Position numbers and translations under genes: made by a program | The notes under the pieces: model-generated | Told to the model about the DNA's origin: nothing | Database searches by the model: none | Seen by the model: the letters and a program-made list of their open reading frames with translations, nothing else | In this document: one piece after another, positions 1,989 through 32,833 of the stretch | Numbering within the stretch: position 1 is the stretch's first letter | How the letters are laid out: every line of letters starts with the position of its first letter | Origin: Gemmatimonadota bacterium | GTDB lineage: Bacteria; Gemmatimonadota; Gemmatimonadetes; Gemmatimonadales; Gemmatimonadaceae | Direction of reading: 5' to 3' | DNA: 64,000 nucleotides | NCBI GenBank assembly: GCA_021324775.1 | Contig: JAJPIM010000008.1 | Location: 1-64,000, forward strand

Positions 1989-2942
1989 ATGGCGGATGGC
2001 ATGTCGCATCGGGTCCCGGGGACGCCGCGAGCGCCCGTCTTTACAACGGCGGTGGCGACGGCGAGCGGGATCGCCCTGTTGACCGCGATGACCGTCGCGG
2101 CGGTCTGGGCGCCGCCCGTGACTGCACAGCAGACGCAGACTCCTGCTGCATCGGCGGCAGGGAGCGCCACGCCACCATCGCACACGCGGCCGCCGCACGC
2201 GTTGCGCGTCTGCGCTGATCCGGACAACATGCCGGCCACGGACGACAAGCTCGAAGGCTTCGACAACAAGATCGCCGCCCTCATGGCCAAGGACCTCGGC
2301 GATTCGGTCACCTACACCTGGTGGCCTACACGCCGTGGCTTCGTGCGCAACACGCTCTCCGCTTCGGACTGCGACGTCGTGTTTGGAGTGCCGAAGGGCT
2401 ACGATCTGGTGCTGGCGACGAAGCCGTACTACCGCTCGGCGTACGTCGCGGTCACGCGGCGTGATCGCCATCTCAAGATCACGTCTCTGGATGACAGTGG
2501 ATTGAAGTCGTTCAAGATCGGCGTCACGCAGTTCGGCGACGACTATACCAACACCCCGCCGGCGCAGGCGCTAGGCGCACGCGGCATCAACCAGAGCGTC
2601 GTCGGGTTTACGTCGTTCTACAACGCTGAGCATCGGCCGAGCGAGATCATCGAGGCGGTGGCGAAGGGCCAGATCGATGCCGCACTCGCCTGGGGACCGT
2701 TGGCGGGATACTTCGCGAAGCACTCGGCGGTTCCGCTCGATCTCACCGTGCTGCCGGACACCGACCGGGCGACTGGCTTCCCCTTTGCGTACGAGCTGAC
2801 CCTGGGCGTACGCCGGGCGGATCGCGGCTTGCGAGATACCCTGAACGCCCTGATCGACCGGCATCGCGCCGACATCGAGGCGATTCTGCGCGACTACGGT
2901 GTGCCATTACTTCCGCTGGCGACGGAATCGGCGTCGCAGTAG
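1989..2942 (+). CDS. xoxJ: XoxJ/MxaJ-like periplasmic substrate-binding protein
   Basis: Family of quinoprotein dehydrogenase-associated solute-binding proteins (type 3 periplasmic binding fold), thought to help activate or assemble the methanol dehydrogenase. The 317-residue protein has a long N-terminal export region (hydrophobic segment about residues 20-45, ending near AQQ). The mature part opens with LRVCADPDNMPATDD, the usual start of this family, followed by GFDNKIAALMAKDLG. It lies 150 bp after xoxF and 128 bp before the cytochrome c gene, the standard xoxFJG-type arrangement. The ligand is unknown for the family. Confidence 0.9.
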   Translation: MADGMSHRVPGTPRAPVFTTAVATASGIALLTAMTVAAVWAPPVTAQQTQTPAASAAGSATPPSHTRPPHALRVCADPDNMPATDDKLEGFDNKIAALMAKDLGDSVTYTWWPTRRGFVRNTLSASDCDVVFGVPKGYDLVLATKPYYRSAYVAVTRRDRHLKITSLDDSGLKSFKIGVTQFGDDYTNTPPAQALGARGINQSVVGFTSFYNAEHRPSEIIEAVAKGQIDAALAWGPLAGYFAKHSAVPLDLTVLPDTDRATGFPFAYELTLGVRRADRGLRDTLNALIDRHRADIEAILRDYGVPLLPLATESASQ

Positions 2943-12573: not shown

Positions 12574-12936
12574 CTAACGCCGATCGCCGCTCTGGACGAA
12601 CTTCTTGGGATTGCCTTCGAGCGCCGCGCCCGGCGCGGGGCGCCAGAGCACTGTGTCCTCGATCTGCCGGGCAAGGGAGAAATCCTTGTCCGTGATGCCG
12701 CCCGCACTGTGTGTCTGCAGCTTGACGCCGACCCGCGCCCAGGTGACGCTCAGATCCGGATGGTGATTGGCGGCTTCGGCGACGAATGCGATGGCGTTGA
12801 CCAGCATGAGTGTGACCGGCCAGCCATCGGTCTTGTAGTATCGGCGAACCCAGCCGTCCTCATAGTACCAACCCGGGAGAGCGGACAGCTTCTCCGCGAT
12901 CTCGGCGTCCGTGTACGTGCGCTCGTGTTTGGGCAT
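12574..12936 (-). CDS. Pterin-4a-carbinolamine dehydratase family protein
   Basis: 120-residue protein with the PCD signature EAANHHPDLSVTWARV and downstream THSAGGITDKDF. PCD enzymes dehydrate 4a-hydroxytetrahydropterin. Lying between the DHPS-like gene and an SDR in the cofactor operon, it probably acts on a pterin intermediate or repairs H4MPT, but no phenylalanine hydroxylase is visible to justify the classical role. Length is normal for the family. Confidence 0.9.
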   Translation of the reverse strand: MPKHERTYTDAEIAEKLSALPGWYYEDGWVRRYYKTDGWPVTLMLVNAIAFVAEAANHHPDLSVTWARVGVKLQTHSAGGITDKDFSLARQIEDTVLWRPAPGAALEGNPKKFVQSGDRR

Positions 12937-12960
12937 CGGTCAGTGGTCGGGGGTCGGTGG

Positions 12961-18231: not shown

Positions 18232-18894
18232 ATGACGTGGACGGTGGGCAGCATGCGATTCGGAGCCCGTGGGCTGATGGCCGTACTGGCGGCCACTACG
18301 GCCGCCCCGCGTGCCGCAACGGGCCAGGCGGTTCGCCTCGGCGTCGTGATGGATCTCCCGCGGCAGACGCTGGAAGCGGCGTGGACCAACGCACCCCAGC
18401 AAGTCGAGCGGGCCTATTGCGTCACCGACTGGTCATACGGCGTCTACCACGTATCGCGAGTCGCACCCATCCAGGACGACACGGTGTTTCGCGTCTTCGC
18501 GATCCGTGATGCGGACGTGAGCAATGCGGGTCCATCGGCGGTGGACTTCGAGTGTCCGGACGGCATGCCCGAACTCCATGTGCACACGCCGACCACGTGC
18601 ATGGGGGACGACGTGACGACATGTGTGAGCGGCGGCCTCAACGCCTATAGTTGCCAGCCGAGCCGCGGCGACCTGGAAAAACTCGTTCGGCGCCGTGATG
18701 CGTTTGCGGTGCTGCAGTGCGACCTGCACGCATTCCGCTTCTATTACGCGTCGGAGTATCCGACCCCGGCGGTGGTGGCCAGCGGTCCGGGGTCGCGACC
18801 GCGGACCGGGAACCTCACGCCCGCGATGCGATACAACGAGCCGGTAACACAGCCGGCCACGGATCCAGGGAGCGGGTCCCGGTCGTCGCCGTAA
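18232..18894 (+). CDS. Secreted JAMM-fold metalloprotease-like protein
   Basis: 220-residue protein with a signal-like N terminus (about 8-32). It has the full JAMM/MPN zinc pattern in order: Glu59, HVH at 116-118, then Ser144-x2-Asp147. Five cysteines around the core (63, 108, 123, 131, 141) suggest disulfides, fitting a periplasmic protein. A Pro/Ser/Thr tail follows residue 175. I recognise the fold, not a named family. It precedes the SoxY-like gene, and a second JAMM protein lies at 21489-22136, so a link to the quinoprotein relay is possible. Confidence 0.72.
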   Translation: MTWTVGSMRFGARGLMAVLAATTAAPRAATGQAVRLGVVMDLPRQTLEAAWTNAPQQVERAYCVTDWSYGVYHVSRVAPIQDDTVFRVFAIRDADVSNAGPSAVDFECPDGMPELHVHTPTTCMGDDVTTCVSGGLNAYSCQPSRGDLEKLVRRRDAFAVLQCDLHAFRFYYASEYPTPAVVASGPGSRPRTGNLTPAMRYNEPVTQPATDPGSGSRSSP

Positions 18895-19024
18895 GCCGCG
18901 GGTACGCCGCGGGTAAGCGGCGGGTAAGCGGCGGCGGATTCGATGGATGCGCGTTCCCGGAGCGGCCCGGGGGCGCGTCGCCCCCTCGCGACTACCGGGC
19001 GCGAACCGCGCGCCGTAGCTTGCG

Positions 19025-19642
19025 ATGACTCACGCGGAGGGGGCTGTGAGCTCAGGCAAGACTTCCCGATACGCGGATCGCGGCGACCGCGGCGATGGTG
19101 ACGCGTCCGGCGATGGGTCCGCGAATGGCGCGATGGGCGGCGCCACGAGTGTAGGACGGCGGGGATTTCTACGTGCCGGTGTCCTCGCGGCAGCGGGGTT
19201 GGCGTTGAGCAGGCCGTTGCTGGCGGAGCCGGCGATGGCGGCGCCCCGGATGGCGGGGAATCGGGGGCCCGACGACGAGATGATCGACGCCGTGCGCCAA
19301 CTACTGAAAGCCAAGTTCGGCGACCGGAAGATCCAGTACGGGCACGTGCAGTTCGACATCCCGACCGATGCGCCGGATGGCCGCGCTGTGCCGGCAATCA
19401 TGGACATCGACCTGCCCATCACGCCGGACTCCTACGTGTCGGCCTACTATCTCATGGTCGACCACAATCCGGACATCTGCCTGGGTACGTATCATCTGAC
19501 GGCTGCCAGCGGCGAGGGGCCGATCGAAACACGCATCAAAATGCGGCGGACGTCGTACGTTCGCGCGATCGCGGAGATGAACACGGGCGAGCTCTGGTCG
19601 GCAGCCGTCAAAGTGTTCGTCGGTCTCAACGGCTGCGGCTGA
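19025..19642 (+). CDS. SoxY-like Tat-exported sulfur carrier of quinoprotein loci
   Basis: 205-residue protein with a Tat signal (RRGFLRAG at about 43-50, then a hydrophobic run to AMA) and a SoxY-like Ig-type domain. The C terminus ends GLNGCG, with Cys204 in the place of the SoxY GGCGG sulfur-carrying Cys. Such SoxYZ-like carriers, without SoxXA, SoxB or SoxCD, co-occur with PQQ alcohol dehydrogenases. Function unknown; a thiol carrier in the periplasm is the best description. TAGCTT lies three bases upstream of the ATG. Confidence 0.85.
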   Translation: MTHAEGAVSSGKTSRYADRGDRGDGDASGDGSANGAMGGATSVGRRGFLRAGVLAAAGLALSRPLLAEPAMAAPRMAGNRGPDDEMIDAVRQLLKAKFGDRKIQYGHVQFDIPTDAPDGRAVPAIMDIDLPITPDSYVSAYYLMVDHNPDICLGTYHLTAASGEGPIETRIKMRRTSYVRAIAEMNTGELWSAAVKVFVGLNGCG

Positions 19643-19658
19643 GCAGCGGGGAGCGACC

Positions 19659-20054
19659 ATGCCATCCACGCATCACCAGATCCCGGCGGACGCCCCAGCG
19701 CTGACGTTTGCGATGCCGGCGTCGCCGCCCACGGTGGGCGATGCCAAGATCCTGCTTCCGCTGTCTGTCGCGCGCAATGCCGTCATCGACGTGCGAGCGC
19801 TCTTGGTGCATCCCATGGACACGGGGTTTTTCCGTGACGCCAGCGGCAATCCGATCCCCGCGTATTTCGTGAACGCCGTCACGGTGATGTACGGCGGCGA
19901 GCAGGTCGCGCGATTCGAATGGACCTCGGGGATCAGTCGCGACCCGTTCGTGCGCTTTCCGCTGCGGGCTTCTCGCGAGGCGCCGGTCCAGGTGGTCTGG
20001 AAAGACAACAAGGGCGGTGTGTACCAACAGTCGGTGGATCTGAAATTCGCGTGA
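19659..20054 (+). CDS. SoxZ-like partner protein
   Basis: 131-residue protein with the SoxZ core RALLVHPMDTGFFRDASGN and a C-terminal beta-sandwich (VQVVWKDNKGG). SoxZ forms a heterodimer with SoxY and is presumably co-exported with the Tat-borne partner, since no signal is visible here. In many quinoprotein loci the two are fused; here they are separate genes 16 bp apart. It overlaps the downstream metallohydrolase by GTGA. Confidence 0.88.
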   Translation: MPSTHHQIPADAPALTFAMPASPPTVGDAKILLPLSVARNAVIDVRALLVHPMDTGFFRDASGNPIPAYFVNAVTVMYGGEQVARFEWTSGISRDPFVRFPLRASREAPVQVVWKDNKGGVYQQSVDLKFA

Positions 20055-21064
20055 TCGCGCGGTGGTGGGGCCTGGCGGCGCTGTTCGCGGGCGCGACCGC
20101 CAGCGCTCCCCGCGCCGCGGCGGCACAGAGCAAGCCGCCGTTCTCCACCGCACCGTATCATGCCGTCCGCCTGGCGGACGGCGTGTTCGTCGTACCAGGG
20201 GACACCGGTCGCGGATCGGAGGGGCGGCCCAACGCGGGCTTCGTCGTCACTGACAGCGGCGTCGCGGTGATCGACGCTCTCGCCAGCCCGCTGGAGGCGC
20301 GCCAGTTCCGGGATGTGATCCGGACGGTGACACCGGCTCCCGTGCGCTGGGTGGTGCTCACGCACCATCACCCCGACCACATGATGGGCACGATCGTCTT
20401 CGCGCGCGAGGGCGCGAAAGTCATCGCGCATCCCGACCGCACGATGCTGACGCGCGAGAACGGCGACGACGGCCTGCTCGCCGACTGGGACCGGATCATC
20501 GGGCTGCACGAGCTGCAGGGGTTCGCGTTCGCCGACACGCCCACGTGGCCCATCACCCACGACACCACGCTGGTCCTCGGCCACACGACCATCGTGTTGT
20601 ACCATCCGCCGGGCGCCGCGCACACACCGGGGGATCTCGCGATCTGGCTTCCCGCCACCCGTGTCCTGTTCGCGGGCGACCTGGTCGTCGAGGACGGCGT
20701 GACCATGGTCGTCGACGGCAACTCCGGCGTCCTCGCGACCGCCCTCGCGCACCTGGACAGTCTGGGCGCGGCGATCGTGGTTCCGGGACACGGACGAATC
20801 GACGGCGATCCCCGCGCGCAGCTCGCAGCCAGCGAGCACTACATCGACTCGCTGCGATCGGCAATGCGCGCGGCGGTCAGGCAGGGGACGCCGATGACGC
20901 GGATCCTCCGCCAGATGCCACGGCCGGACAGCGGGCGCCCGGTGTCCCCGGCCTCGCGCCGGCAGCGCAACGCGGAGCGCGTGTATCTGGAGATGGAACG
21001 CGACCTGATGGGGATGGGCTCGGATTCTCACGGCGGCGGCCCGCATGTGTCCCCGCTGCGCTGA
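20051..21064 (+). CDS. SoxH-like zinc metallohydrolase of the quinoprotein relay
   Basis: 337-residue metallo-beta-lactamase fold protein with a signal peptide (ends about AAAAQ, residue 26) and the zinc motif His105-x-His107-x-Asp109-His110. Later ligands sit in PPGAAHTPGD and the VPGHG loop. It matches the quinoprotein relay system metallohydrolase type next to SoxYZ-like carriers; its substrate is unknown, plausibly a thiol adduct on the carrier. GTG start at 20051 gives the four-base overlap with soxZ; a longer upstream frame is not used. Confidence 0.87.
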   Translation: MIARWWGLAALFAGATASAPRAAAAQSKPPFSTAPYHAVRLADGVFVVPGDTGRGSEGRPNAGFVVTDSGVAVIDALASPLEARQFRDVIRTVTPAPVRWVVLTHHHPDHMMGTIVFAREGAKVIAHPDRTMLTRENGDDGLLADWDRIIGLHELQGFAFADTPTWPITHDTTLVLGHTTIVLYHPPGAAHTPGDLAIWLPATRVLFAGDLVVEDGVTMVVDGNSGVLATALAHLDSLGAAIVVPGHGRIDGDPRAQLAASEHYIDSLRSAMRAAVRQGTPMTRILRQMPRPDSGRPVSPASRRQRNAERVYLEMERDLMGMGSDSHGGGPHVSPLR

Positions 21065-21110
21065 TGGCTCAACTTCCGCTGCGGCCGGGCGACCGGGTTA
21101 GATTCGTGGC

Positions 21111-21389
21111 GTGCGCACCTACCGGGTCGTCGCCGTCGTGGTCATCGGGCTGGCGTTCATCGGGTACCTGCTGTGGTCCACGCTGGCGGCACAGGCGGCA
21201 GAATGCCATGTCTGCGTCGCATTTGGCACGGGGCGAAACTGTGCCACCGCCTCGGCGGCGACCAACACCGCGGCGCGCCGCGCTGCCCAGTCCACCGCAT
21301 GCGGCACGCTCGCGCACGGCATGAACGACGCGATTGCCTGCGAGAATCGGCCCGCGCTGAGCGACGAGTGCAAGAACAAGGATCGTTGA
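21111..21389 (+). CDS. Small secreted Cys-rich protein, unknown function
   Basis: 92-residue protein with an N-terminal hydrophobic segment (about 5-27) and six cysteines (AECHVC, NCATAS, ACGTL, ACENR, DECKN), likely three disulfides outside the cytoplasm. The GTG start at 21111 is six bases after TAGATT (21099-21104), with no Shine-Dalgarno, suggesting a leaderless mRNA. I recognise the pattern (VCVAFGTGRNCATASA) as a recurrent hypothetical family but can give no function. Confidence 0.72.
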   Translation: MRTYRVVAVVVIGLAFIGYLLWSTLAAQAAECHVCVAFGTGRNCATASAATNTAARRAAQSTACGTLAHGMNDAIACENRPALSDECKNKDR

Positions 21390-21446
21390 CGAGCGATCGC
21401 TGATGGGCGGCCGGTGGGCCTGTGGCACGGGCTCAGCGGACTAGCA

Positions 21447-21502
21447 CTAGCGCACCAGCACTAGCGCACCAGCACTAGCGCACCAGCACTAGCGCACCAG
21501 CA
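21447..21502. repeat. 14-bp tandem repeat, four copies
   Basis: The unit CTAGCGCACCAGCA occurs four times head to tail without mismatch, preceded by a partial copy at 21441-21446. Read on the minus strand, each copy begins TGCTGGTGCGCTAG, the last codons plus TAG stop of the JAMM gene ending at 21489. The array looks like tandem duplication of that gene's 3' end. Confidence 0.95.
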
Positions 21503-22136
21503 CGGTCGCAGGGTGAAGCACGGTGCGATCGGCCGCACGGATGGCCGCGTCGATCGAGTCGACATCCCATGCCGCGATTACGGCGCGATCAGCGCCGCCG
21601 GCGAATGTCATGAGATCGTGTGGCGAGAGGCCCGGCTCCTTGAGCGCATGGCCGTCGGGAGCGGCGCGGTACGGATGCGTGTGCCATGTACCGACCATGT
21701 CCGCCACCGAGTCGCAGGAACCCGTCACCGCGAACTGGAACTGCTTGAGGTTACGGGCATGGGCCCAGCTCGTGACCCACACCGTGTCGCCGCTGGCGTG
21801 GCCGACCAGGCACCCGAGATATTCGCGCTGCGTCGGTGGACCGGTGCCGAGCATCTGCGTCAGGGTGTTCGTTTCCGCCAGCTCGTTCCAGTGCGCGTTG
21901 AAGCGAAGGAAAATCGCGTTGATGGAGTCCCGGACCGCCGGAGCCAGTATGAGCACGCCTGCCGGCGGTGGGCGCAGCGGCGCGTCGTGCGGTGATGCTC
22001 GCCTCCCGGCGAGGCCGCCGAGCGCGATGACCGCCAGCGTTGCGATCGAGGCGCGCCTGCGGGCCTGCCGCCACAGGCCGATGGGCGGATCAGCGGGGCA
22101 ATGAGTCAGGGGAGAACTCCTGGAGCCGGCCGGCAA
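21489..22136 (-). CDS. Second secreted JAMM-fold metalloprotease-like protein
   Basis: 215-residue protein with a signal-like region (about 24-44) and the JAMM pattern Glu105, HTH at 152-154 (in GTWHTHPY), Ser171-x2-Asp174. It shares motif layout with the 18232-18894 protein but is otherwise divergent. No ATG is available at the N terminus; TTG at 22136 is the best start, so the exact N terminus is uncertain. Its stop lies inside the fourth unit of the 14-bp repeat. JAMM proteases cut isopeptide or peptide bonds; the substrate here is unknown. Confidence 0.7.
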   Translation of the reverse strand: MPAGSRSSPLTHCPADPPIGLWRQARRRASIATLAVIALGGLAGRRASPHDAPLRPPPAGVLILAPAVRDSINAIFLRFNAHWNELAETNTLTQMLGTGPPTQREYLGCLVGHASGDTVWVTSWAHARNLKQFQFAVTGSCDSVADMVGTWHTHPYRAAPDGHALKEPGLSPHDLMTFAGGADRAVIAAWDVDSIDAAIRAADRTVLHPATVLVR

Positions 22137-22148
22137 GCGCGGCAGGCA

Positions 22149-22688
22149 CTAATGCGTCTCGGTCGGCTCGTTCGCGGCGGGGTCGGGCTGCACGCCGATC
22201 TCTTCGCGATACGCGGCGGATTGTCCGAAGTTCTCTTCGACTTCCACTTCGATCGCGGTGGCGTGGACCGCCGGCGGGAGCTGTGCCAGCATGCGATGAG
22301 TGAGGTACCGCGCGAGCATCTCGACGGTGGTGTTCGGGATGTCGAGCAGGGCGCAATCGTCGAGCGGGAAGACATAGCGCGGGATGCCCTGGTACGCGAC
22401 GGCGACCGTTCCCGACTGCACCTCGACCGTGAGTTTGGGATTGGTCAGGGGGAGCAGCACCTTGTGGTCGATCTCATCACACAGTTTTCTCGCCAGCCGC
22501 TTCAGGACCGAGAAGTCGAGCACATACCAGCTCTCGGCATCGATCGCACCCTCGAGGGCGACACCCACGCGGTAGTTGTGGCCGTGGAGCGACTCGCAGC
22601 GATGTCCGGCGAACGTGATGAAATGCGCGGACGAAAAGACGAGATAGTCCTTCGTGACGTAAACCCGGAAGCCGCCGGACGGGATCAT
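22149..22688 (-). CDS. 6-pyruvoyl-tetrahydropterin synthase/QueD family protein
   Basis: 179-residue T-fold enzyme with zinc histidines in FSSAHF and LHGHNY and the catalytic Cys in CESLHGHNY. Family members act on dihydroneopterin triphosphate. Its position beside a CitG-like gene, an MptN-like ligase and Mch points to a pterin step for H4MPT, but it may instead be the QueD of the queuosine pathway, since queF is present at 62868. The start is ATG at 22688, with TAACTT exactly six bases upstream, a good leaderless-promoter candidate. Confidence 0.87.
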   Translation of the reverse strand: MIPSGGFRVYVTKDYLVFSSAHFITFAGHRCESLHGHNYRVGVALEGAIDAESWYVLDFSVLKRLARKLCDEIDHKVLLPLTNPKLTVEVQSGTVAVAYQGIPRYVFPLDDCALLDIPNTTVEMLARYLTHRMLAQLPPAVHATAIEVEVEENFGQSAAYREEIGVQPDPAANEPTETH

Positions 22689-22697
22689 GAGGGCAAG

Positions 22698-23609
22698 TTA
22701 GGGGCCGGTGGGGCGCAGGTGGTAGCCACCAGCCAGGAGGTAGGCGAACAGCGCGGCGGCCGTCACGTCAGCGGTCGCGCCGGGGTTCCGCGCATTGCGG
22801 GAATCGCGCAGCCGATCGTCGAAGGCATGGAGATGTGAGCGGCCCGCCGGCGTGCGGACACCTCCGGCGGCCACGATCGCGGCAGCTGCCCGAGACACGC
22901 TCTCGGCTTCGGGGGCGCCGAGCTTGCGCGCGATCAGTGTGTCCGGCGCGGCGGCCAGGAGCGCCAGATAGGTCTCGACGACCGCCGAGTCCCACGAGAG
23001 GCCGTCGCTCCTCGCTCGCGACAGCGCGGGGAGGCCTGTGTCGAACGTGGCGGCAAATCCTGTCGCGTATTCGCGGGCGACCGCATCACGTTCCGCGGCG
23101 AGCGTCATCACGACCTGCAGCGTCGCGTCCGGCTCGTCCCGTACATCCTGCGCATCCACGTGTCCCAGTCCGCCAGGCCGCGCGAGGCGGATGGCGGCAT
23201 AGACCGCACGGGCGTCGGCGATCGTGGTCGTGGCGAGGACAGCGCCGACGCCGTCGCGCAGGGCGGCGATGGAAATGCTGCGTGCGGGCTGTGGCCCAGC
23301 CGGACCGGCGGCCATGAGCGATGATTCGATCGCCGCGCGCGCGATCGGCGCGAACAGCAGGATGATGCCGAGGTTCGTGTTGGACGGTGCCCACCGGGCG
23401 GTCGCTTCGACGGCGGCGAGTACGGTGGGGCCGATCGGTCGTTGTCCCGCGAGCGCCATCGCCGGGCCGATCGCGGCGGCGCTGGCAAGGAAGTCTTCGT
23501 AGCGGATGTCGTGAAAGTGGCGGCCCGGCGACACGTTGCCGGGCTTCGGGGCGCTCGCTTCGAGCAAGCACGCGAGCTGGGCGGCGGTGGCGACCGAGTC
23601 GGGAGACAC
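22698..23609 (-). CDS. CitG-like triphosphoribosyl-dephospho-CoA synthase family protein
   Basis: 303-residue all-helical protein of the CitG/MdcB family: LEASAPKPGNVSPGRHFHDIRYEDFLAS near the start (given here as two adjoining motifs, residues about 16-43), then PSNTNLGIILLFAPI. Members in methanogens and H4MPT methylotrophs lack citrate or malonate lyase partners and their role is unresolved; a ribosyl or phosphoribosyl transfer in cofactor synthesis is a reasonable guess. GTG start at 23609. Confidence 0.85.
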   Translation of the reverse strand: MSPDSVATAAQLACLLEASAPKPGNVSPGRHFHDIRYEDFLASAAAIGPAMALAGQRPIGPTVLAAVEATARWAPSNTNLGIILLFAPIARAAIESSLMAAGPAGPQPARSISIAALRDGVGAVLATTTIADARAVYAAIRLARPGGLGHVDAQDVRDEPDATLQVVMTLAAERDAVAREYATGFAATFDTGLPALSRARSDGLSWDSAVVETYLALLAAAPDTLIARKLGAPEAESVSRAAAAIVAAGGVRTPAGRSHLHAFDDRLRDSRNARNPGATADVTAAALFAYLLAGGYHLRPTGP

Positions 23610-23685
23610 GAGTCAGTCAGGAGAAAAGGAGCACGGACCGAGGCCGAAACGCGAAGGCGATGTGAGCCGGCATCGTTCCGGACGG

Positions 23686-24579
23686 CTAGCCACCAACCGC
23701 CAGCCGCGCGAGCTCGTCCGCGACATCGATGCCGGTTGCTTCCTGCACGCCGCGCCACCCCGGGATCGCGTTCACCTCCAGCGCATAGACAGTCCCGTCC
23801 TCGGCCGGCAGGAGGTCGACCCCGGCGTAGTCCGCGCCGACCGCACGTGCAGCGCGCACGGCCAGCTCCGTCCAGCCGGGCGACAGGGTGAGTGCCCGCA
23901 CGGTGCCACCTCGCGAGTAGTTCGTCCGCCACTGGGGACCGGCGTCCGGTGACCGCCGCTCGATCGCGCCGACGACGCGATCGCCTACCACGAATGCACG
24001 GATGTCTCGGCCGCCGTGGCTGATCGTGCGCTGGAGATAGTAGACGCCGCGGATCGCATCGAGCGCGCGGAAGACCCGCCACGCGATCTCCTCATCGTGC
24101 ACGCGCACCATCCCGAGGCCCATCGAGCCGAACAACGGTTTGACGATGACGTCGCCCATCGTGCGGAACGCGGCAATCGCGTCCTCGCTGCGTTCGCACA
24201 CGACGGTGTCCGGCGTCGCGAGGCCCGCCATCTGGAGCAGGGCCGAGGTGTAGAACTTGTCGACCGATCGTTCGATCGCGCGCGGGGAGTTGAGCACGCG
24301 CACGCCCGCGTCCTCCAGCCAGTGCAGCGCGTCGACGCGGTAGATGATCTGTTCCAGCGAGCCGGCCGGGATGATGCGTGCGAGCACAACATCGGCGCCG
24401 ATCGCAAATGGGGCCGCCGGCGCGGCGCCGGCCGGCTCCCTGCCGTGACCGGCCGTGCCGAGGCGCGCCACGAGACCTTCGTACGCGAGCAGCTCCGCCG
24501 TTGCACCCCAGGCGGTGATAGCCCGGCAGAGCTGGTCGGTGTGCCAACCCTTCCTGGCACTGAGTATCGCGACGTGCAT
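23686..24579 (-). CDS. RimK/MptN-like ATP-grasp glutamate ligase
   Basis: 297-residue ATP-grasp protein: DVIVKPLFGSMGLGMVRV is the nucleotide loop and VDLLPAEDGTVYALEVNAIPGW the metal-binding C-terminal strand. In archaea MptN adds L-glutamate to H4MPT to give H4SPT; other RimK relatives modify F420 or ribosomal S6. The C1 context favours a cofactor glutamylation role. Starts at ATG 24579. Confidence 0.86.
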   Translation of the reverse strand: MHVAILSARKGWHTDQLCRAITAWGATAELLAYEGLVARLGTAGHGREPAGAAPAAPFAIGADVVLARIIPAGSLEQIIYRVDALHWLEDAGVRVLNSPRAIERSVDKFYTSALLQMAGLATPDTVVCERSEDAIAAFRTMGDVIVKPLFGSMGLGMVRVHDEEIAWRVFRALDAIRGVYYLQRTISHGGRDIRAFVVGDRVVGAIERRSPDAGPQWRTNYSRGGTVRALTLSPGWTELAVRAARAVGADYAGVDLLPAEDGTVYALEVNAIPGWRGVQEATGIDVADELARLAVGG

Positions 24580-24630
24580 GCGATCGTGAAGACCGCTCGA
24601 AGACCGCGCGGCGGGAATGCCGGGCGGCGG

Positions 24631-24954
24631 TTACTGCCGGTTCGTCTCGTCGCCGACGTACGCCGCGACACCACCAGTGGCGAAGTTCGCGAGGTCGCCG
24701 GCCACTTTCTTGAATCCGTTGGTCGACGTCCCTTTCTTGAGCGCATCCATCGACGCGAACGTGAGCTCGGCCTTCCGGTACAACGCCGGCGCGGATCCAT
24801 CCAGGCCCGTGGTGAACTTCACGAACTCGGCCTTGGTGTACCCGATCTCCGCGGCGTTCGCGTAGAGGAGCGGGAGATGGGTCGCCGCATAGTACCGCTC
24901 GAACGCGGCGGGGTCCTTGGGCGGATTGTAGAGCACAACGACGCGCGCGGGCAT
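24631..24954 (-). CDS. EthD-family ferredoxin-like fold protein
   Basis: 107-residue alpha/beta-barrel protein with YNPPKDPAAFERYYAATHLPL, the EthD family start. EthD proteins often act as small dimeric accessory proteins or monooxygenase-like enzymes. It sits between the MptN-like gene and mch; whether it takes part in C1 metabolism is not clear from the sequence. Confidence 0.83.
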   Translation of the reverse strand: MPARVVVLYNPPKDPAAFERYYAATHLPLLYANAAEIGYTKAEFVKFTTGLDGSAPALYRKAELTFASMDALKKGTSTNGFKKVAGDLANFATGGVAAYVGDETNRQ

Positions 24955-25050
24955 AGAGGTCGGGAGGAAAGAGTGAGAGGGACGGAGAACGGATGCGGGA
25001 ACGACAACACAGCGAAGGGGGCCAACGATGCTGCCGGCGATTTCAGCGCG

Positions 25051-26064
25051 CTAGGAATAGAGCGACTTGGCCAGCACATCCAGATTGAGGTGGCCTGCGT
25101 GGAAGGTCCGCCCGCTCGAAGCGTTCGTCAACCACACCTCGGCCGGACTGAAGAGAAGCGGATCGATCTTGTAGAAGTCGTTGTTATAGCGCTTGAAGGT
25201 GTCGTAGAACGGCGTTCCGTAATCGCGGGAGGCTTCGGCCGGCACCTTCGGCGCGAGCGCCGAGAGCTCGTCGTCACCGGCGTCCACGATATAGCGGGCC
25301 TGGCCGCCGTAAAGGATGCAGTCATTGGTGCGCCCGATGCCGTGCAGGTCTCCGTCGGGGGCCGGCGGGATCGGCGCCGTGCCGATGCCGCTCACGACGC
25401 GCGTGATGTCGAATCCGAGCGTGTCCATCTTGTGCAATCCCGTTTCCAGGATCCGGGCCACGATCTGCACGCACCCGGCGATGCTGGCAGTCGGCGCCAC
25501 GAGAAACGTGAGCTGGGCCGGCGTGAGGTGGGCGCGCTCCGCGACCCAGGCGGCCACGTCGTCGGTCGGGGGTGTGCGCGTCTCCAGTACCAGCACGCCG
25601 TGCGTGGCGACTTCCGCATAATTGAGTTTGGCAAAGAGCTCCGTCTCGACTCGCGCGTGCGCGCGCAGCGGGCCCGAGCCCATGCCGAAGAAGTCGCCGG
25701 TCTTGATCGCCCAGCCGGCGTATTGCGAGGCCATGCAACTGATCGCAGGATGATCGGTCCAGACCTCCACGCCGGGGAACATCGTTCCTCCGATCGGGAT
25801 CGTCTGCAACTGCACGTGACCGAGGCCGCCCATGCAAATCCGGGCCAGGGCGCGGCCGGCCGCGTAACCGCCACGGACGGCAATTCCTGCATCGATGACA
25901 CGAGCGCCGTTCCCGAGGATCGAGGACGCGACGCGGAACTCCGCCGCGTGGGCGATGAGGTCGTCCGCCATGGCGCAGGCGTGTTCATTGAGCGCGAGTG
26001 CCGGGCGGGTGGCGCGGACCGGTGCGGTGTGTCCCTCACGCCGCAGCACCGGCGCTGCCGCCAC
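25051..26064 (-). CDS. mch: Methenyltetrahydromethanopterin cyclohydrolase
   Basis: Hydrolyses methenyl-H4MPT to N5-formyl-H4MPT. The protein shows the family's NEHACAMADDLI start, GLGHVQLQTIPIGG, and a C-terminal HAGHLNLDVLAKSLYS. I chose GTG at 26064 (337 residues, normal length) because GGAGGT on the coding strand (26079-26074) lies nine bases upstream; the frame stays open further to 26214. It is transcribed after the fhc genes, separated by about 146 bp. Confidence 0.95.
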   Translation of the reverse strand: MAAAPVLRREGHTAPVRATRPALALNEHACAMADDLIAHAAEFRVASSILGNGARVIDAGIAVRGGYAAGRALARICMGGLGHVQLQTIPIGGTMFPGVEVWTDHPAISCMASQYAGWAIKTGDFFGMGSGPLRAHARVETELFAKLNYAEVATHGVLVLETRTPPTDDVAAWVAERAHLTPAQLTFLVAPTASIAGCVQIVARILETGLHKMDTLGFDITRVVSGIGTAPIPPAPDGDLHGIGRTNDCILYGGQARYIVDAGDDELSALAPKVPAEASRDYGTPFYDTFKRYNNDFYKIDPLLFSPAEVWLTNASSGRTFHAGHLNLDVLAKSLYS

Positions 26065-26210
26065 GGTGCCAGTACCTCCGGGAGCGGTCACGGACGAGGG
26101 TCCTCCGGTCCTGAGTGACGGGGCCCACGAGCGCCGCCGCGTGACACGAGAATGACATGATAGCCGGCTGTACGGCAGGGGGTGGACGCCCGGTGCCCTG
26201 AGCCCGCCAA

Positions 26211-27101
26211 TCACGCCTCAGTCCACAGCAGCAACTCCCCCTTTCCGGCCTCCGACAGATCGCCGCAATACCGGGCGTACCGCCCATTAATGTATCGGTC
26301 ATCGACCGGGACGCCGTGGGCTCGCCGCAGATAGGCAAATATCAGGCGAAGGTGGGGCGGGTGATATGTGCATGCGTACCGGTAAGCGGCCGGTACGGCC
26401 GCGCCACCGAGGGCGACCACCGTGCCGCGCTTGTTCCACAGGCCAACGGTCCCGGCCGCTTTGCCCATCACCAGCACCGTACCGGCGATCATGGAGCGGG
26501 CGGCCCCGTCCCCGGCGTCGCCGCCCACCACGATGAGACCGCGCCGGACGGCGGTGCCGGCGTCGCGGCCGACATTCCGGCGGACGAAGATCTCGCCGCC
26601 TGTCATGCCGCGGGATGCGCCTGGCAGGGCGCCGCCCACGCGGTCGGCCGCATTGCCCCACACCAGCAGGGCGCCGCCCGCCATGGCAAGGCCGGCATCA
26701 TCTCCCACATTACCGTGGACGGCGATGGTGCCTCCGGTCATGGTGCGGCCCAACTCGCGACCCGCGTTGCCATCGATGCTGATCGTGCCGCCGGACATGG
26801 CCGCGCCGATGGCATCGACGTTGCCGAGATTGCCCTGCATCCGGACGACGGCCGATCGTTCGCCGCGCACCGAGAAGAGATCGCCGAGGTCGACCGAGTG
26901 GTGGTCCGCTTCCCGTCCCCGGTCCGTGTCACACCCAGTCGCATCCGCGAGTGCGGGTGGCGCCGCGTGCCGCGCCAACCAGACAGGCAGATGCGCGATC
27001 TCGGTCGCGGACAGCGTCGCGAACCGGCTGGGAACGATGGCATCCGCCACGACGCGCCCTTCAACGGCATCTTTGAGCGTGAGCGTCACGGTGCTGCTCA
27101 C
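26211..27101 (-). CDS. fhcC: Formyltransferase/hydrolase complex subunit C
   Basis: 296-residue subunit related to FwdC/FmdC. Its central part is a right-handed beta-helix built from GltB-like repeats seen as a series of MSGGTISIDGNAG, MTGGTIAVHGNVG, MAGGALLVWGNAA and MTGGEIFVRRNVG units. It is part of the FhcABCD complex that moves formyl groups from H4MPT to methanofuran and hydrolyses them to formate. GTG at 27101 gives a four-base overlap with fhcD; a longer upstream frame is rejected. Confidence 0.95.
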   Translation of the reverse strand: MSSTVTLTLKDAVEGRVVADAIVPSRFATLSATEIAHLPVWLARHAAPPALADATGCDTDRGREADHHSVDLGDLFSVRGERSAVVRMQGNLGNVDAIGAAMSGGTISIDGNAGRELGRTMTGGTIAVHGNVGDDAGLAMAGGALLVWGNAADRVGGALPGASRGMTGGEIFVRRNVGRDAGTAVRRGLIVVGGDAGDGAARSMIAGTVLVMGKAAGTVGLWNKRGTVVALGGAAVPAAYRYACTYHPPHLRLIFAYLRRAHGVPVDDRYINGRYARYCGDLSEAGKGELLLWTEA

Positions 27102-28081
27102 GACGCCACTCCCGGCGGGTGTGTCGCCGGTGAGGCCGGCTCTCCGGCCGGCTCCGCTCCCGGCGAGCGGTCGCCGCCCAGGATCTTGCGCAGATAGAAG
27201 TGGTGGGGGCCGAGCTTCCCGCCGTAGTTGCCGGCCGTGATGCGGCGCACGCCCGGCCTGCACGCGGCCATGATGCCGATGCGCATCGCGCCCGCGATCG
27301 ATTCGAAGTCGAGGCCATCGAGCACGATCTCGAGTACGCTGTTGACACCATCGCCGAGGTCGCTCGGCGTGATCGGGCGCAGCGTCGGCGCGTAGGCATC
27401 GTTGAGGCTTGCGACCATCGACTTGTACCGCTTCGCTCCCACCTTGCTTCCGCTGCGGACGATTCCGCCTGGGAAGGGCAGGATCACACCGGCGAGCCCC
27501 GCCATCGCGTCGACTGCCGCCTCGGCCGCGGCGAGCGTGGCTTCAGCCGATTCCCCGAGAATCAGGAAATTGCCGCCGCCGATGCCCTTGGTCTTGCCGA
27601 AGTCTTCCTGTACGAGGAACTCACCTTCCATCACCGGAATGCGCCAGTACCGGCGGCCCGCGATCACCTTGCTCGCCTGGAATCCATCGCCAAAGATCCG
27701 TAGCGGTTTTCCGACCGGCATTCGTTCCGGCGCGTCCGGCAGCCCATCGAAGCACGCGGTCGTGGGACATGTGAGCACCGTCTGCCCGATGCGCTCAACG
27801 AGTCGTTTCTGGAGTCCCTCGGAGTCCGTGGCAAAAACGAGGACGCTGACGCCGGGTCTCCCGTCGGGCGTCACGCGCGGGAGCAGCTCACGTTCGATCG
27901 CTGCTTCGCACTTGCACGCGATGACCGACGTCGCGAATCCCGTCATCGTGGTGGCGGCCTGCCGCGCCCAGCGCAGCGTCGCGGCGGTGATGATCACCCG
28001 CGCGCCGCGCATGCCAAACGCTTCGGCGAACGTGTCGTCCACGGGAACGCCGTGGATCGACGCCAGCCGGTCACCCATCAT
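27098..28081 (-). CDS. fhcD: Formylmethanofuran:H4MPT formyltransferase subunit
   Basis: 327-residue homologue of archaeal Ftr; in the bacterial complex it transfers the formyl group from formyl-H4MPT to methanofuran or methylofuran. Signatures include GFATSVIACKCEAAIE, TCPTTACFDGLPD and GGGNFLILGESAEATL. The C terminus has a Pro/Ala-rich tail of about 25 residues after FYLRKIL. ATG at 28081 (a second ATG follows at once). Gene order fhcB-A-D-C on the minus strand. Confidence 0.96.
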   Translation of the reverse strand: MMGDRLASIHGVPVDDTFAEAFGMRGARVIITAATLRWARQAATTMTGFATSVIACKCEAAIERELLPRVTPDGRPGVSVLVFATDSEGLQKRLVERIGQTVLTCPTTACFDGLPDAPERMPVGKPLRIFGDGFQASKVIAGRRYWRIPVMEGEFLVQEDFGKTKGIGGGNFLILGESAEATLAAAEAAVDAMAGLAGVILPFPGGIVRSGSKVGAKRYKSMVASLNDAYAPTLRPITPSDLGDGVNSVLEIVLDGLDFESIAGAMRIGIMAACRPGVRRITAGNYGGKLGPHHFYLRKILGGDRSPGAEPAGEPASPATHPPGVAS

Positions 28082-28108
28082 CGCCTCGCCGAGCGGCGTC
28101 CGGACGGA

Positions 28109-29731
28109 TCATGCGCCGTAGTTCTCGAATGCGACCGAGAGGTAGCGGCCGAAGTACTGCTTGATGTCGCGCTCGACCGCTGGGTCGTAGGCGGGGCTCG
28201 CCTGATGGCGCCGTCCCTGCGGCGCGCGGCGGAGCTGTCCTTCCTCCACCACCATCGTCCCACCCTTGAGCACGTACCGCGGCGTGGCAAACATGCGGGA
28301 CCGGTCCGCATCCCGGGTGTAAATCGTGATGTCGGCGTCCGCGCCGGCGCCCAGGTGGCCCTTGCTGGACAGACCGAGCAGCCGCGCGGGCCCCGCTCGC
28401 GTGATGATCGCGATTTCGTTGAGGGTATACTCGCGCGAGAGGCCGTCGGCGAGTGCACTGCCCGCGAGCATCTTCGGATTGATGCGCTTGATCTGCTCGT
28501 CGCGGAAGGACCGGTCCATGAGGAGGTGGATGAGCTCCGGGTAGCTCATGAACGAGCCGCCGTTCGGATGGTCCGTGGACAGCACCAGGCGCCACGGATC
28601 GCCCGACAACAGAAACAGCTCAAGACCGATGGCCCACTGCAACGACGCCATCGCGGCCTTGTCGCGATAGGTGTACGGCACGACGCCGCACCCCGTCTCG
28701 AGCTCGACGTCGATATTGGCCCACTTGCGGCCCGTGCTCGCGTGGAGGAGGTATTCGACGGCGCCGTCCGCGGTGAGCGTGCACGCTTGGCCGAACATCA
28801 CCTGCCCGACATCGCCGCTGGTTTCGGGATGCGTCGCCATGTACTCGGAGATCTGCCTGGCGCCCGACGCGTACGATTTCCCGCGCTCGCCCGCGTAACT
28901 CTGGAATTGCAGATGCGTGAAATGGGCGCGCCGGCCGCTCAGCGCGCGCATGGTATCGAGCGTGGTGCCGACATTGCCGGCCACACCGAGGTTGTTGCAG
29001 TGGATGTGAACCGGGTGCGGGAGATTGAGCGCGTTGGCGGCGCCGGCCAGCGTTTCGAGAATCGTGCGAGGCGTCACCTTGGGATCACCGGCGGCATCGT
29101 CGAGGGACGTGATCTCGCGGACGTTGCGCTTCCACAATTCGATCCCGCCCGGATTCACGATCTTGACGGCGTATCCTTTGGTGGTGCGGAGCAGCCATGC
29201 CACGTAGTCGCGCGCTCGTTCGTGTTCTCCGCCGGCGATCTGCCGGTGCAGATACGCATCGTTGCCCATCAGTATGTAACACCCAGTGTCGATGATCGGC
29301 GTATCGTCGAACTGGGCGTGCGCATCGCGCGCGCTCACCGGTGCCACTGCGGCATCGAACACCGTCGTGTATCCCAGGCCGGCATAGCGGTAGCCCGTGG
29401 TGAACGTACTGGGCACCGTGCCGCCGCTGCCGGAGCGGGGGATCGTGATGTCCGCGTCGCGGTCGCGGACCAGCAGCGGCGCGCGGGCGGGGTCCATCGC
29501 GTGCTCCTCGGGCAGCATCCGTCGCGCGACGTTGACACTGGCGGAGGCGACGTGGGCGTGGAGATCGATGCCGCCCGGCATTACGACCATGTCCCGGGCA
29601 TCGAGGCGCGGGGCATCGTCCGGGAGCGATGCCACGATGCGTCCGTTGAGGACGCAGATGTCGCGCACCTCGCCATCGATGTTGTTCGCGGGGTCGTGGA
29701 CGGTGCCGCCCGTGATGCGGAGACTGCTCAT
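28109..29731 (-). CDS. fhcA: Formyltransferase/hydrolase complex subunit A
   Basis: 540-residue amidohydrolase-fold subunit that hydrolyses formyl-methanofuran to formate. The binuclear-metal residues can be placed: His58 and His60 (DLHAH), probable carboxylated Lys190 (VKIVNPGG), His242/His244 (HIHCNN), His273 and Asp387 (STDHPNGG). The start is ATG 29731, overlapping the fhcB stop (ATGA); extension upstream would run through fhcB. All ligands appear intact. Confidence 0.96.
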   Translation of the reverse strand: MSSLRITGGTVHDPANNIDGEVRDICVLNGRIVASLPDDAPRLDARDMVVMPGGIDLHAHVASASVNVARRMLPEEHAMDPARAPLLVRDRDADITIPRSGSGGTVPSTFTTGYRYAGLGYTTVFDAAVAPVSARDAHAQFDDTPIIDTGCYILMGNDAYLHRQIAGGEHERARDYVAWLLRTTKGYAVKIVNPGGIELWKRNVREITSLDDAAGDPKVTPRTILETLAGAANALNLPHPVHIHCNNLGVAGNVGTTLDTMRALSGRRAHFTHLQFQSYAGERGKSYASGARQISEYMATHPETSGDVGQVMFGQACTLTADGAVEYLLHASTGRKWANIDVELETGCGVVPYTYRDKAAMASLQWAIGLELFLLSGDPWRLVLSTDHPNGGSFMSYPELIHLLMDRSFRDEQIKRINPKMLAGSALADGLSREYTLNEIAIITRAGPARLLGLSSKGHLGAGADADITIYTRDADRSRMFATPRYVLKGGTMVVEEGQLRRAPQGRRHQASPAYDPAVERDIKQYFGRYLSVAFENYGA

Positions 29732-31212
29732 GCCGCGCCCTCGAGGTGGGCGAGCGTCGCGCCCAGGGCGCGCAGCAGGATGTAGCTGTCCTGCGGGCGG
29801 CCCGCCGCGGCGAGCGCCGCGGCGACCGTGAGTTCGGGACCGGACTCGCGCGCACGATGGCCGGTGGCCGACGCCTCGCCTGTGGCGCCGGACTCCCCCG
29901 CGGCCAGAGCCGCGCAGATGGCTGACACGGTCGCGCGCGCAACGGCTGGCGTGGCTGGTCCCCACAGATCCCGGAACGCCGCGACCTCCGGCGTCTCCAG
30001 CGCGGGGCGGAGTGGTAGCGGGACGTCGTCCAGCCGCACGGCGACTCCGCGCTCGTGCACGCCGGCGCGGCCGGTATCGATCGCGGCGAACGCCGGAAAC
30101 GGGCTCTCGGACGCCGACGGCCCGATGATCGCGCACGAGACGTGAGACAGTCCGTCGCGAATCGAGGCCGGCACCGACGCCGGCGAGCCGACGATCAGGG
30201 CAACCTGAATCTCACCTCGCGCGAGCAGAGCGGCCGCATCGTCTGCGGGGCGGTAGCGCGGCGCGCCGCGCCCGAAATCGACCGCTGCCGGGTAGCCTGT
30301 TTGCCACGTCATGACGGCATCCGCTCCCGACCGATTTCCCCCTGCACGGAGCGTACTGAGGGCGCAGCGCGTGCTGGCATTGAGCGTCTCGGCGAGCGCG
30401 ATGAGCGCTTCGCTCCGCCGCGGATCGCGATGGGGCGCGGGTTCGCCATCGGAGACGATCGCCACGTACGCGCCGGCTCGCAACCGTGTCGCGAGTGTGG
30501 CGGCTCGCGCGTCGAGAGAACCCTCCGGCGCGTTGGGGAGTGAGTGTCCGCGGAGCGCCGCTCGCACCAGACTCAACGCGGCGACCTCCTCATCGGCCGC
30601 GAACGCCACGCGTGTGTCAGCGTCCCCCGGCCCGCGGTCCGCGGCGATGTCCGCGGCGATGACTGTTCGTCCGCGGCGGCCGCCGGTGATGAAGAGTCCT
30701 TCGGGGTCGGGGAGATAGCGCGCCGTGTACCGCGGATATCGCGTCGCCGGATCGAATCCCCAGAACAGGACCACGTCGGCCCGGTTCCGAAGCTCGCCTA
30801 GCGTCGCCGTCGCGCGTCCTCGCCGCTGCGCGGCGAGCAGGCCGGCGGAGGCAGTCGCAGATGTGATGCTGTCGAGGGCCGCGCCGAGGATGTCGGCCAC
30901 CGCGATTGCGGCCCGGTGGGTCTCGCACGGGAGATCAGCGGCCAGGTAGACGAGGGCGCGGTCGGCATCGTGGAGCTTTGCGGCCACCGCGGCCAGCGCG
31001 GCGACCGGGTCTCCCTCGCGCGCGCCAGCGCGGATGCGAGCTGGCAGCCGGCCATCACCGAACCATTGAGTGCCCAGGGCGCAGGCTAGCCGTGTCTCGG
31101 TGATGCGCCCGGCGCGGACGACGACGCCAATGTCATCGCAGGTACATCCGCAGCCGAGGCAGGTCGCGTGCTCAACCGTGAGGTCGGCCGCGGGAGGGGT
31201 AACGTCGGGCAC
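29728..31212 (-). CDS. fhcB: Formyltransferase/hydrolase complex subunit B
   Basis: 494-residue homologue of formylmethanofuran dehydrogenase subunit B. The N terminus has a Cys cluster ATCLGCGCTCDDIG (Cys18, 21, 23, 25). Bacterial FhcB is known not to carry the molybdopterin redox centre of archaeal FwdB/FmdB and acts in a hydrolase complex. I chose GTG at 31212, 15 codons before the Cys cluster; the frame is open further upstream to 31710, but that part overlaps the divergent S8 protease gene and is not conserved-looking. Exact start uncertain. Confidence 0.93.
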   Translation of the reverse strand: MPDVTPPAADLTVEHATCLGCGCTCDDIGVVVRAGRITETRLACALGTQWFGDGRLPARIRAGAREGDPVAALAAVAAKLHDADRALVYLAADLPCETHRAAIAVADILGAALDSITSATASAGLLAAQRRGRATATLGELRNRADVVLFWGFDPATRYPRYTARYLPDPEGLFITGGRRGRTVIAADIAADRGPGDADTRVAFAADEEVAALSLVRAALRGHSLPNAPEGSLDARAATLATRLRAGAYVAIVSDGEPAPHRDPRRSEALIALAETLNASTRCALSTLRAGGNRSGADAVMTWQTGYPAAVDFGRGAPRYRPADDAAALLARGEIQVALIVGSPASVPASIRDGLSHVSCAIIGPSASESPFPAFAAIDTGRAGVHERGVAVRLDDVPLPLRPALETPEVAAFRDLWGPATPAVARATVSAICAALAAGESGATGEASATGHRARESGPELTVAAALAAAGRPQDSYILLRALGATLAHLEGAA

Positions 31213-31375
31213 CGTCGGGCTCGGTTCGGGCCGATCAACAGGGGCGGGGAAGGATACCGATCGCTCTGGTGGCGAAGCAAGAGCACCGTCGCACCGGGTG
31301 GGGCGAACGGCCTCTTGCTTGACGACTGTTTGCTGTGGCGTGACTTTCTCACTCCCCTTCCGCGCGAGGAGTTCT

Positions 31376-32833
31376 ATGAGCCCGAAGCTTGTCGTCCGCT
31401 CGGGGGTGGCAACCATAGCCGCCACCACGCTGTTCGCTGTTGCCTGCACCAGTGATCGCCCATCGCCGTCGGCTCCTGCGATGGCGGAGGCGACACCGCG
31501 AATCGCGACAACACTCGCCGCGATCAACGCCGACCGCCACATCATCCAGCTACGGCCCGGCGGCTCCGTGGACGCGGTGGCAGCTCGCGTGGCGAGCATG
31601 GGCGGACGCGTGGAGCGCTCGCACGCGGGCATGGGGCTCATCGTCACGCACGGGTTGTCCGCGACGGCCGCCACGGCGCTCCGTGCGTCGTCTGACGTGC
31701 TGCATATCACCAGCGACCGGACGGTGCAGTGGATCCCGCCGCTGGCGAAGCAGCATCTCGCGGCGAGCCGGCCGGTGGTCGCGACGTCACGGTTGCCACA
31801 CGTGGACCAGAGCGGCGCGGAGTTCTTTCCGTTTCAGTGGAATCTCGACGTGATCCGCGCGAACACCGCGTGGCTCGTCACGCGTGAAGGCCAGAACACG
31901 ATGGTGTGCGATCTGGACACGGGTGTCGATCCGACGCACATCGATCTCACCGGCAAGATCAATCTCGCGGTGAGCACCTCGTTCGTCGCAACCGAGCCCG
32001 ACATCCTCGACCGCAACACCCACGGCACCTACGTGTCGGCGCTGATCTCGTCCAACGGCATTGGCATGGCGTCAGTCGCGCCGGAGACCGAGTTGTGCCA
32101 GGTCAAGGTCCTCGACCAGACGGGCAGAGGGTCATTCGGTGACGTGATCTCCGGCGTGATTTACGCCGCGGACATCGGCACGGACGTCATCAACATGAGC
32201 CTCGTGGCGGTCCTGTCTCCGCGCGACACGGGCGTCGTCCAGTTGGCCGAGATGTTTCAGGCGGCGGTGGACTTTGCGCTCCGCCACGGCGTGACGATCG
32301 CCGCGGCCGCCGGGAACAACGCGGACAATCTCGCAGCGGTGGACTCGATCGAACTGCCGGGCGAGCTGATCGGCGTGATCGACGCCGGGGCGACTGCCCC
32401 CACCGACCAGATGAACTTCGACCAGATTGCCAGCTACTCCGACTTTGGATTCCCTGGCACGACACTGTTCGCGCCCGGCGGCGACTTCCAGCCGCAGAAT
32501 GGCGGTGTCGTGCAGGACCTGATTCTTTCGGCCTGCAGCAGCTTCGCGGTGCAGCTGCTTCCGGCGATCGATTGCACAGGCCACAACGTCTACATCTTCG
32601 ATGACGGAACCAGCGCCGCATCACCGCACGTCGCGGGCGAGGCGGCCATCCTCAAATCGGACAGGCATCACACGAACCACTCGCACCCGGATATCGTGAC
32701 GCCCGCATGCATCATCAAAGGCACCGATCGCATTCTCACGGGCGGCCGCTATCCCGATCCGCTCTACGGCTTCGGCAGGATCGACATCATCGGAGGCCGC
32801 GATTGCCATCATCCGGTGACGGAGCACCTGTAG
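31376..32833 (+). CDS. Subtilisin-like S8 serine protease lipoprotein
   Basis: 485-residue protein with a lipobox (AVAC at about 21-24). The S8 catalytic domain shows Asp in VCDLDTGVD, His in NTHGTYVSALI, and Ser in DDGTSAASPHVAG, so it is probably active. The N-terminal 120 residues resemble an inhibitor-like propeptide. AGGAG lies five bases before the ATG at 31376. It is divergent from fhcB and has no evident role in C1 oxidation. Confidence 0.92.
   Translation: MSPKLVVRSGVATIAATTLFAVACTSDRPSPSAPAMAEATPRIATTLAAINADRHIIQLRPGGSVDAVAARVASMGGRVERSHAGMGLIVTHGLSATAATALRASSDVLHITSDRTVQWIPPLAKQHLAASRPVVATSRLPHVDQSGAEFFPFQWNLDVIRANTAWLVTREGQNTMVCDLDTGVDPTHIDLTGKINLAVSTSFVATEPDILDRNTHGTYVSALISSNGIGMASVAPETELCQVKVLDQTGRGSFGDVISGVIYAADIGTDVINMSLVAVLSPRDTGVVQLAEMFQAAVDFALRHGVTIAAAAGNNADNLAAVDSIELPGELIGVIDAGATAPTDQMNFDQIASYSDFGFPGTTLFAPGGDFQPQNGGVVQDLILSACSSFAVQLLPAIDCTGHNVYIFDDGTSAASPHVAGEAAILKSDRHHTNHSHPDIVTPACIIKGTDRILTGGRYPDPLYGFGRIDIIGGRDCHHPVTEHL

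Follow-up and report, generated by a model that had tools for sequence, protein, structure and literature searches.

We analyzed a 64,000-nucleotide stretch of the genome of a Gemmatimonadota bacterium from soil (the window; contig G000:C45:1-64000, source genome 4.19 Mb, 98% complete), which encodes a SoxY-like carrier, SoxZ and a SoxH-like metallo-hydrolase. Our best explanation, which we hold with about even confidence, is that this trio represents the quinoprotein-associated SoxYZ/SoxH/rhodanese module in its Gemmatimonadota form, that it serves lanthanide-type XoxF as an accessory in methanol oxidation and that it handles sulfane sulfur in the periplasm. The usual partner of the trio is a rhodanese, which has been deleted in the window and was thus invisible to the first-pass annotation of this DNA, made from the sequence of the stretch. 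With this trio, the Gemmatimonadota hold an unfused version, outside the Proteobacteria, of the SoxYZ/SoxH proteins that accompany pyrroloquinoline quinone (PQQ) dehydrogenases.

SoxY, SoxZ and SoxH form a tight operon inside an XoxF/tetrahydromethanopterin (H4MPT) island. The three genes are co-directional, SoxY and SoxZ are separated by 16 bp, and the start of SoxH overlaps the SoxZ stop by 4 nucleotides. The first-pass annotation had described a carrier exported by twin-arginine translocation (Tat) that ends in NGCG, together with SoxZ and a hydrolase, with the SoxYZ carrier as two genes instead of a fusion, and had placed the set within a PQQ dehydrogenase island. All of this was borne out by the family matches (Table 1), by the separate SoxY and SoxZ reading frames and by the presence of an XoxF-type dehydrogenase and H4MPT genes. 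In an alignment of 11 SoxY relatives, the RRxF Tat motif and the C-terminal LNGC were invariant; the window protein, the only SoxY of its genome, ends in LNGCG (with Cys204), and the final residue is either G or V among the aligned relatives. SoxH carries the complete metal set of the metallo-beta-lactamase (MBL) fold (HHHPDH, H191, D210, H247) and these ligands were invariant in 10 relatives. Its best NCBIfam match by a wide margin was TIGR04559 (quinoprotein relay metallohydrolase 2), with 155.8 bits against a cut-off of 280, and in the nearest solved structure (8d2z) the aligned region excludes the HxHxDH site. When scored against TIGR04557, the fused quinoprotein SoxYZ carrier (cut-off 140 bits), SoxY reached 62.2 and SoxZ 58.2 bits, and with two genes the family definition failed. 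Since these strict definitions failed (fusion, score cut-offs), we consider the cassette a variant that is probably related to the Proteobacterial quinoprotein-associated module.

Conservation of the trio was followed in a sample of 246 Gemmatimonadota-class genomes and in 24 Gemmatimonadota loci obtained by scanning named genomes with the SoxH profile. SoxY was found in 11 of the 246 genomes and was accompanied by SoxZ and SoxH in all 11. The trio was also kept together in those of the 24 loci that are long enough to show it; in the genome G075 and its kin, SoxH sits a few genes apart from SoxYZ. In 13 of the 24 loci, a two-domain rhodanese follows directly 3' of SoxH, and its catalytic cysteine loop YCN is present in all 12 of these 13 proteins that were read by script. 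This rhodanese resembles mercaptopyruvate sulfurtransferases (NF008557, E = 3.9e-34, under the cut-off). At two sister-species loci (L086 and L088), SoxH and the rhodanese are encoded as a fusion in a single reading frame. MBL-rhodanese fusions are known in persulfide metabolism (CstB, ETHE1-rhodanese), and the sister-species proteins likewise combine both domains in a single chain; however, their MBL domain is nearest to TIGR04559 and not to persulfide dioxygenases, and they are likely exported and are encoded with SoxYZ. Because of the rhodanese partnership we favor sulfane-sulfur handling on SoxY Cys204, and the fusion in the two sister species suggests sulfane-sulfur chemistry over a carbon carrier. 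The loci with a SoxY ending in NGCV lack an adjacent rhodanese (7/7), whereas the NGCG loci of sufficient length have one; this split may go back to a single event.

The window genome has lost this partner. Comparing the window with its sister G170 by blastn, we found that positions 20000-21040 correspond to G170 10383-11405 and positions 21083-21959 to G170 12436-13308. The two blocks are collinear, and the rhodanese part of G170 (about 1,030 bp) is replaced by about 42 bp. Window SoxH ends after the MBL domain because the rhodanese part is deleted. The deletion is seen in the assembled sequence, and a mis-assembly is possible. Relocation of the rhodanese elsewhere in the window genome was ruled out, the best match there being 39% identical; the sister genomes hold a similar match (40%) besides the SoxH-linked one. 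In the window genome, the rhodanese step must either be carried out by another sulfurtransferase or be dispensable, and this natural deletion makes the window genome and its sister species a pair for comparison.

A similar set of genes has been described in Proteobacteria. A review published in 2026 and devoted to the ped cluster describes the rhodanese PP_2666, the SoxYZ fusion PP_2677 and the SoxH protein PP_2678 as a triad that is conserved among methylotrophs and further Proteobacteria whose lanthanide/PQQ dehydrogenases have adjacent cysteines, and places the homologues META1p1703-1705 beside xoxFGJ in Methylorubrum extorquens (PMC12997753). The roles offered there as proposals are disulfide or cofactor handling and protection of PQQ from sulfur nucleophiles (PMC12997753). 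Similarly, Dahl and colleagues regard the SoxYZ-fusion/SoxH locus of Hyphomicrobium as a PQQ alcohol locus that is separate from sulfur oxidation (PMC11582611). The Gemmatimonadota cassette shares with the Proteobacterial triad a SoxYZ carrier, a SoxH-type hydrolase and a rhodanese, the tie to PQQ dehydrogenases with vicinal cysteines and, as far as reported, the lack of thiosulfate-oxidizing Sox enzymes alongside (PMC12997753). It differs in its separate SoxY and SoxZ genes, in scores below the curated cut-offs and in the two-domain mercaptopyruvate-sulfurtransferase-like rhodanese, which is sometimes fused to SoxH and is deleted in the window genome.

The tie to methanol oxidation was quantified by Fisher tests, with Mch marking 20 of the 246 genomes (one chance match set aside). 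Mch was present in 10 of the 11 SoxY-positive genomes against these 20 of 246 (p = 1e-11). The vicinal-cysteine motif CCDxVNRG, searched for as a DNA pattern and present in 65 of the 246 genomes, occurred in 10 of these 11 (p = 8e-6). The tests are uncorrected for phylogeny; the association with Mch persists at the genus level (p = 4.6e-5). In addition, every one of the 11 SoxY-positive genomes has matches to the PQQ dehydrogenase family TIGR03075. In the genome G075 (L069, L040), in which Mch was not found, SoxYZH occurs with an XoxF of the lanthanide type (WDYDG) that is 78% identical to the window XoxF. In the f2 family (L089, L097, L098, L105-L107), the SoxYZH-rhodanese operon has an aminotransferase-like/epimerase block on one side and hemB-hemL-hemY on the other, and this order is conserved. 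The f2 genomes carry this locus, next to the genes for heme synthesis, on contigs separate from those of XoxF and Mch. Because the trio is unlinked to XoxF and the H4MPT genes there, its co-occurrence with methylotrophy does not reflect hitch-hiking or linkage only.

For a relay of this kind, the following sequence of events can be suggested. In the periplasm, SoxY Cys204 on its short NGCG arm would take up sulfane sulfur or a different thiol adduct. The rhodanese, with its catalytic cysteine in the C-terminal domain, would move sulfane sulfur to or from this arm, and SoxH would hydrolyze the SoxY adduct and thereby reset the cysteine. Such a relay would keep reactive sulfur off PQQ and off the vicinal disulfide of XoxF, the presumed client system. 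Which way the sulfur moves, what SoxH acts on and how XoxF gains from the relay are our inferences.

Several observations weigh against this explanation. The mechanism is a prediction from sequence. SoxYZ (TIGR04557) and SoxH (TIGR04558/9) all score under the curated cut-offs of the quinoprotein relay. Sulfur transfer by the rhodanese cannot be essential, since the NGCV loci lack this enzyme and the window genome has lost it. The rhodaneses of Proteobacteria and Gemmatimonadota may also differ in type. The lack of a phylogenetic correction applies to all co-occurrence tests. Finally, about half of the H4MPT-positive genomes lack SoxY, which is why we consider it an accessory.

Among the other explanations, maturation or redox control is the strongest, although we consider it unlikely. 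Here, the cassette would make or repair the vicinal disulfide of XoxF, or a cysteine of the XoxF cytochrome, instead of removing sulfur species. The vicinal cysteines of the window XoxF and the association of SoxY with the motif fit this idea, and a role of this kind has also been put forward for the triad of Proteobacteria, whose operon in M. extorquens includes a thioredoxin-like gene (PMC12997753). However, 55 genomes carry the vicinal-cysteine motif without SoxY, and no thioredoxin or Dsb gene was seen in the cassette or in the loci of its relatives.

Less probable still is a periplasmic formaldehyde relay, in which XoxF would pass formaldehyde or a formyl thioester to the SoxY cysteine, with SoxH as a glyoxalase II-like thioester hydrolase. 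The position of the cassette among XoxF and H4MPT genes, its strict tie to methylotrophy genes and a weak similarity of SoxH to hydroxyacylglutathione hydrolase (E = 7e-8) would agree with a C1 carrier, but such a carrier has no need of a rhodanese, let alone one fused to SoxH as in the sister species, and half of the H4MPT-positive genomes do without the cassette.

We also regard it as improbable, slightly more so than a C1 carrier, that the trio is a remnant of a thiosulfate-oxidizing Sox system (SoxXAYZBCD) in which SoxYZ is loaded and unloaded for energy by enzymes other than those recognized. The folds of SoxY and SoxZ are those of that system, and so is the location of the carrier cysteine, in the periplasm and close to the C-terminal end; SoxZ scores above the cut-off for true SoxZ (Table 1), and the relatives found in the PDB are SoxY proteins. 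In contrast, the tail of SoxY reads NGCG or NGCV in place of GGCGG, the protein misses the SoxY_true cut-off (TIGR04488, 72.7 bits against 125), and an MBL hydrolase and a rhodanese replace the oxidizing enzymes. The relay was rightly annotated as lacking the latter, as far as SoxB and SoxA are concerned; SoxX and SoxCD were not searched for. SoxB gave no match in the three genomes of the window genus (G000, G170, G176) and only matches below the cut-off in the other SoxY-positive genomes, and SoxA was above its cut-off in none of the 11 (best in the window genome 38.3 bits, cut-off 110).

The first-pass annotation had proposed that two secreted JAMM proteases, JAMM1 and JAMM2, bracket the trio as a five-gene system and process or release something at the SoxY cysteine. 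Within the genus, the trio has both genes at its sides in every genome (3/3), all four JAMM1-positive genomes carry SoxY, and small sulfur-carrier proteins are substrates of other JAMM enzymes (CysO/Mec+), but this arrangement is limited to the genus, with no JAMM neighbor at SoxYZ loci outside it (22 of the 24 loci), JAMM2 and SoxY are independent within the H4MPT-positive genomes, JAMM2 lies on the other strand behind a PTPS gene and JAMM1 lacks JAMM profile support, so that we consider the five-gene system very unlikely. A JAMM-SoxYZ module was rejected on gene neighborhood, genome co-occurrence and operon strand.

In numbers, JAMM2 was found in 11 of the 246 genomes (a twelfth match, E = 5.6e-4, was set aside), of which 10 were Mch-positive and all 11 had the vicinal-cysteine motif. 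Five of these 11 lacked SoxY, and five of the 11 SoxY-positive genomes lacked JAMM2. Within the Mch-positive genomes, the four combinations of both genes were evenly filled (5/5/5/5; Fisher p = 0.67). Thus, JAMM2 tracks methylotrophy rather than SoxYZ. In the window it is the final gene of the H4MPT operon, on the strand opposite to the trio and 13 bp past PTPS, and its neighbors elsewhere are MgtE, YbhB-like or pabAB genes. JAMM1 occurs in four genomes, the three of the window genus and G075, where JAMM1 and SoxY lie on separate contigs. The proposal had been staked on JAMM genes accompanying SoxYZ in other genomes, and this was largely not observed; the outcome is less clear for JAMM1, since its four genomes are all SoxY-positive, although three of them belong to one genus.

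The assignment of the two proteins as JAMM proteases was confirmed in part. In JAMM2, the motif E..HxHP..SxxD (E105, H152, H154, P155, S171, D174) was invariant in 12 relatives. Its sole Pfam match was Prok-JAB (PF14464; E = 0.11, 12.8 bits against a cut-off of 25), and 6 of 12 family members gave this match below threshold (best E = 0.038). In JAMM1, we found HxHTP, SxxD and six cysteines invariant in four relatives, and there was no Pfam JAB match. When JAMM1 and JAMM2 were compared by hhalign, the HxH and SxxD blocks aligned, but with E = 0.068, and the score of JAMM1 against the JAMM2 profile did not stand out from that of shuffled sequences (722 of 1386 scored shuffles reached at least its score); on these two results, homology of the two was not accepted. 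JAMM1 is thus JAMM-like by its motif and gains no support from profiles. Profile searches of the PDB yielded chance matches only for both proteins, and AlphaFold2 models from 3-sequence alignments were unusable (pLDDT 33 and 38). It is conceivable, if rather doubtful, that JAMM2 acts in the periplasm of Gemmatimonadota as a JAMM peptidase dedicated to lanthanide/XoxF methylotrophy, where it processes an exported methylotrophy protein, and that, independently, the SoxH-rhodanese fusion marks the quinoprotein SoxYZ relay as handling sulfane sulfur. A 14-bp tandem repeat, AGCGCACCAGCACT, overlaps the 3' end of JAMM2 (window 21435-21503, 4.9 copies at 96%).

The surrounding island starts with the PQQ dehydrogenase, the XoxJ/MoxJ-type protein and a PQQ-associated beta-propeller protein. 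Among the H4MPT genes, profile matches stand behind Mch, FhcC, FhcD, FhcB and the PTPS-like, CitG-like and MptN-like proteins, and FhcA and EthD were assigned by reading only; beta-RFAP synthase and an MfnF-like protein were also matched in the window. The closest named relatives of the window genome in the SoxH-profile scan were metagenome-assembled genomes of soil Gemmatimonadetes, such as palsa_1248 and Centralia_MAG_343. Butterfield et al. 2016 (PMC5103831) described an island of this kind in soil Gemmatimonadetes, with XoxF and the H4MPT genes for biosynthesis and oxidation sharing a contig as they do here; neither the SoxYZ/SoxH cassette nor the JAMM genes are mentioned for these bacteria in the passages of that paper considered here.

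Table 1. Features of the window and of related loci
Feature	Position	Strand	Evidence or remark
SoxY-like carrier (core)	19025..19642	+	PF13501 E = 2.9e-23; alignment of 11; PDB SoxY matches
SoxZ (core)	19659..20054	+	PF08770 E = 3e-25; TIGR04490 81.5 bits, cut-off 76
SoxH-like MBL-fold metallo-hydrolase (core)	20051..21064	+	TIGR04559 E = 1.6e-45, below cut-off; metal ligands
Deletion scar	21041..21082	.	About 1,030 bp of sister G170 (two-domain rhodanese) absent
MBL-rhodanese fusion proteins, sister species	L033:10302-12422; L035:13263-15317		About 690 aa, likely exported, encoded with SoxYZ
JAMM1	18232..18894	+	Secreted; HxHTP + SxxD, six invariant Cys; neighbor, membership doubtful
JAMM2	21489..22136	-	Secreted JAMM-motif protein; last gene of minus-strand H4MPT operon; outside cassette
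XoxF-type PQQ dehydrogenase	4..1839	+	TIGR03075 700 bits; vicinal Cys ACCDVVNRG, lanthanide-type WDYDG
XoxJ/MoxJ-like quinoprotein-associated binding protein	1989..2942	+	TIGR03871 286 bits, above cut-off
H4MPT C1 genes: PTPS-like, CitG-like, MptN-like, EthD, Mch, FhcC, FhcD, FhcA, FhcB	22149..31710	-
Small anchored Cys-containing protein (orf92)	21111..21389	+	No Pfam family; conserved cysteines, GMN[DE][AS]IAC motif

The small protein orf92 was ruled out as a member of the cassette, since it belongs to a widespread family (66 of the 246 genomes). A second PQQ dehydrogenase with vicinal cysteines is encoded on the same contig (G000:C45:78398-79954, L053); it is 50% identical to the window XoxF and lacks WDYDG. 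Tandem M16 peptidase genes (window 37254-39922) adjoin the methylotrophy island, and their synteny is kept in both sister species.

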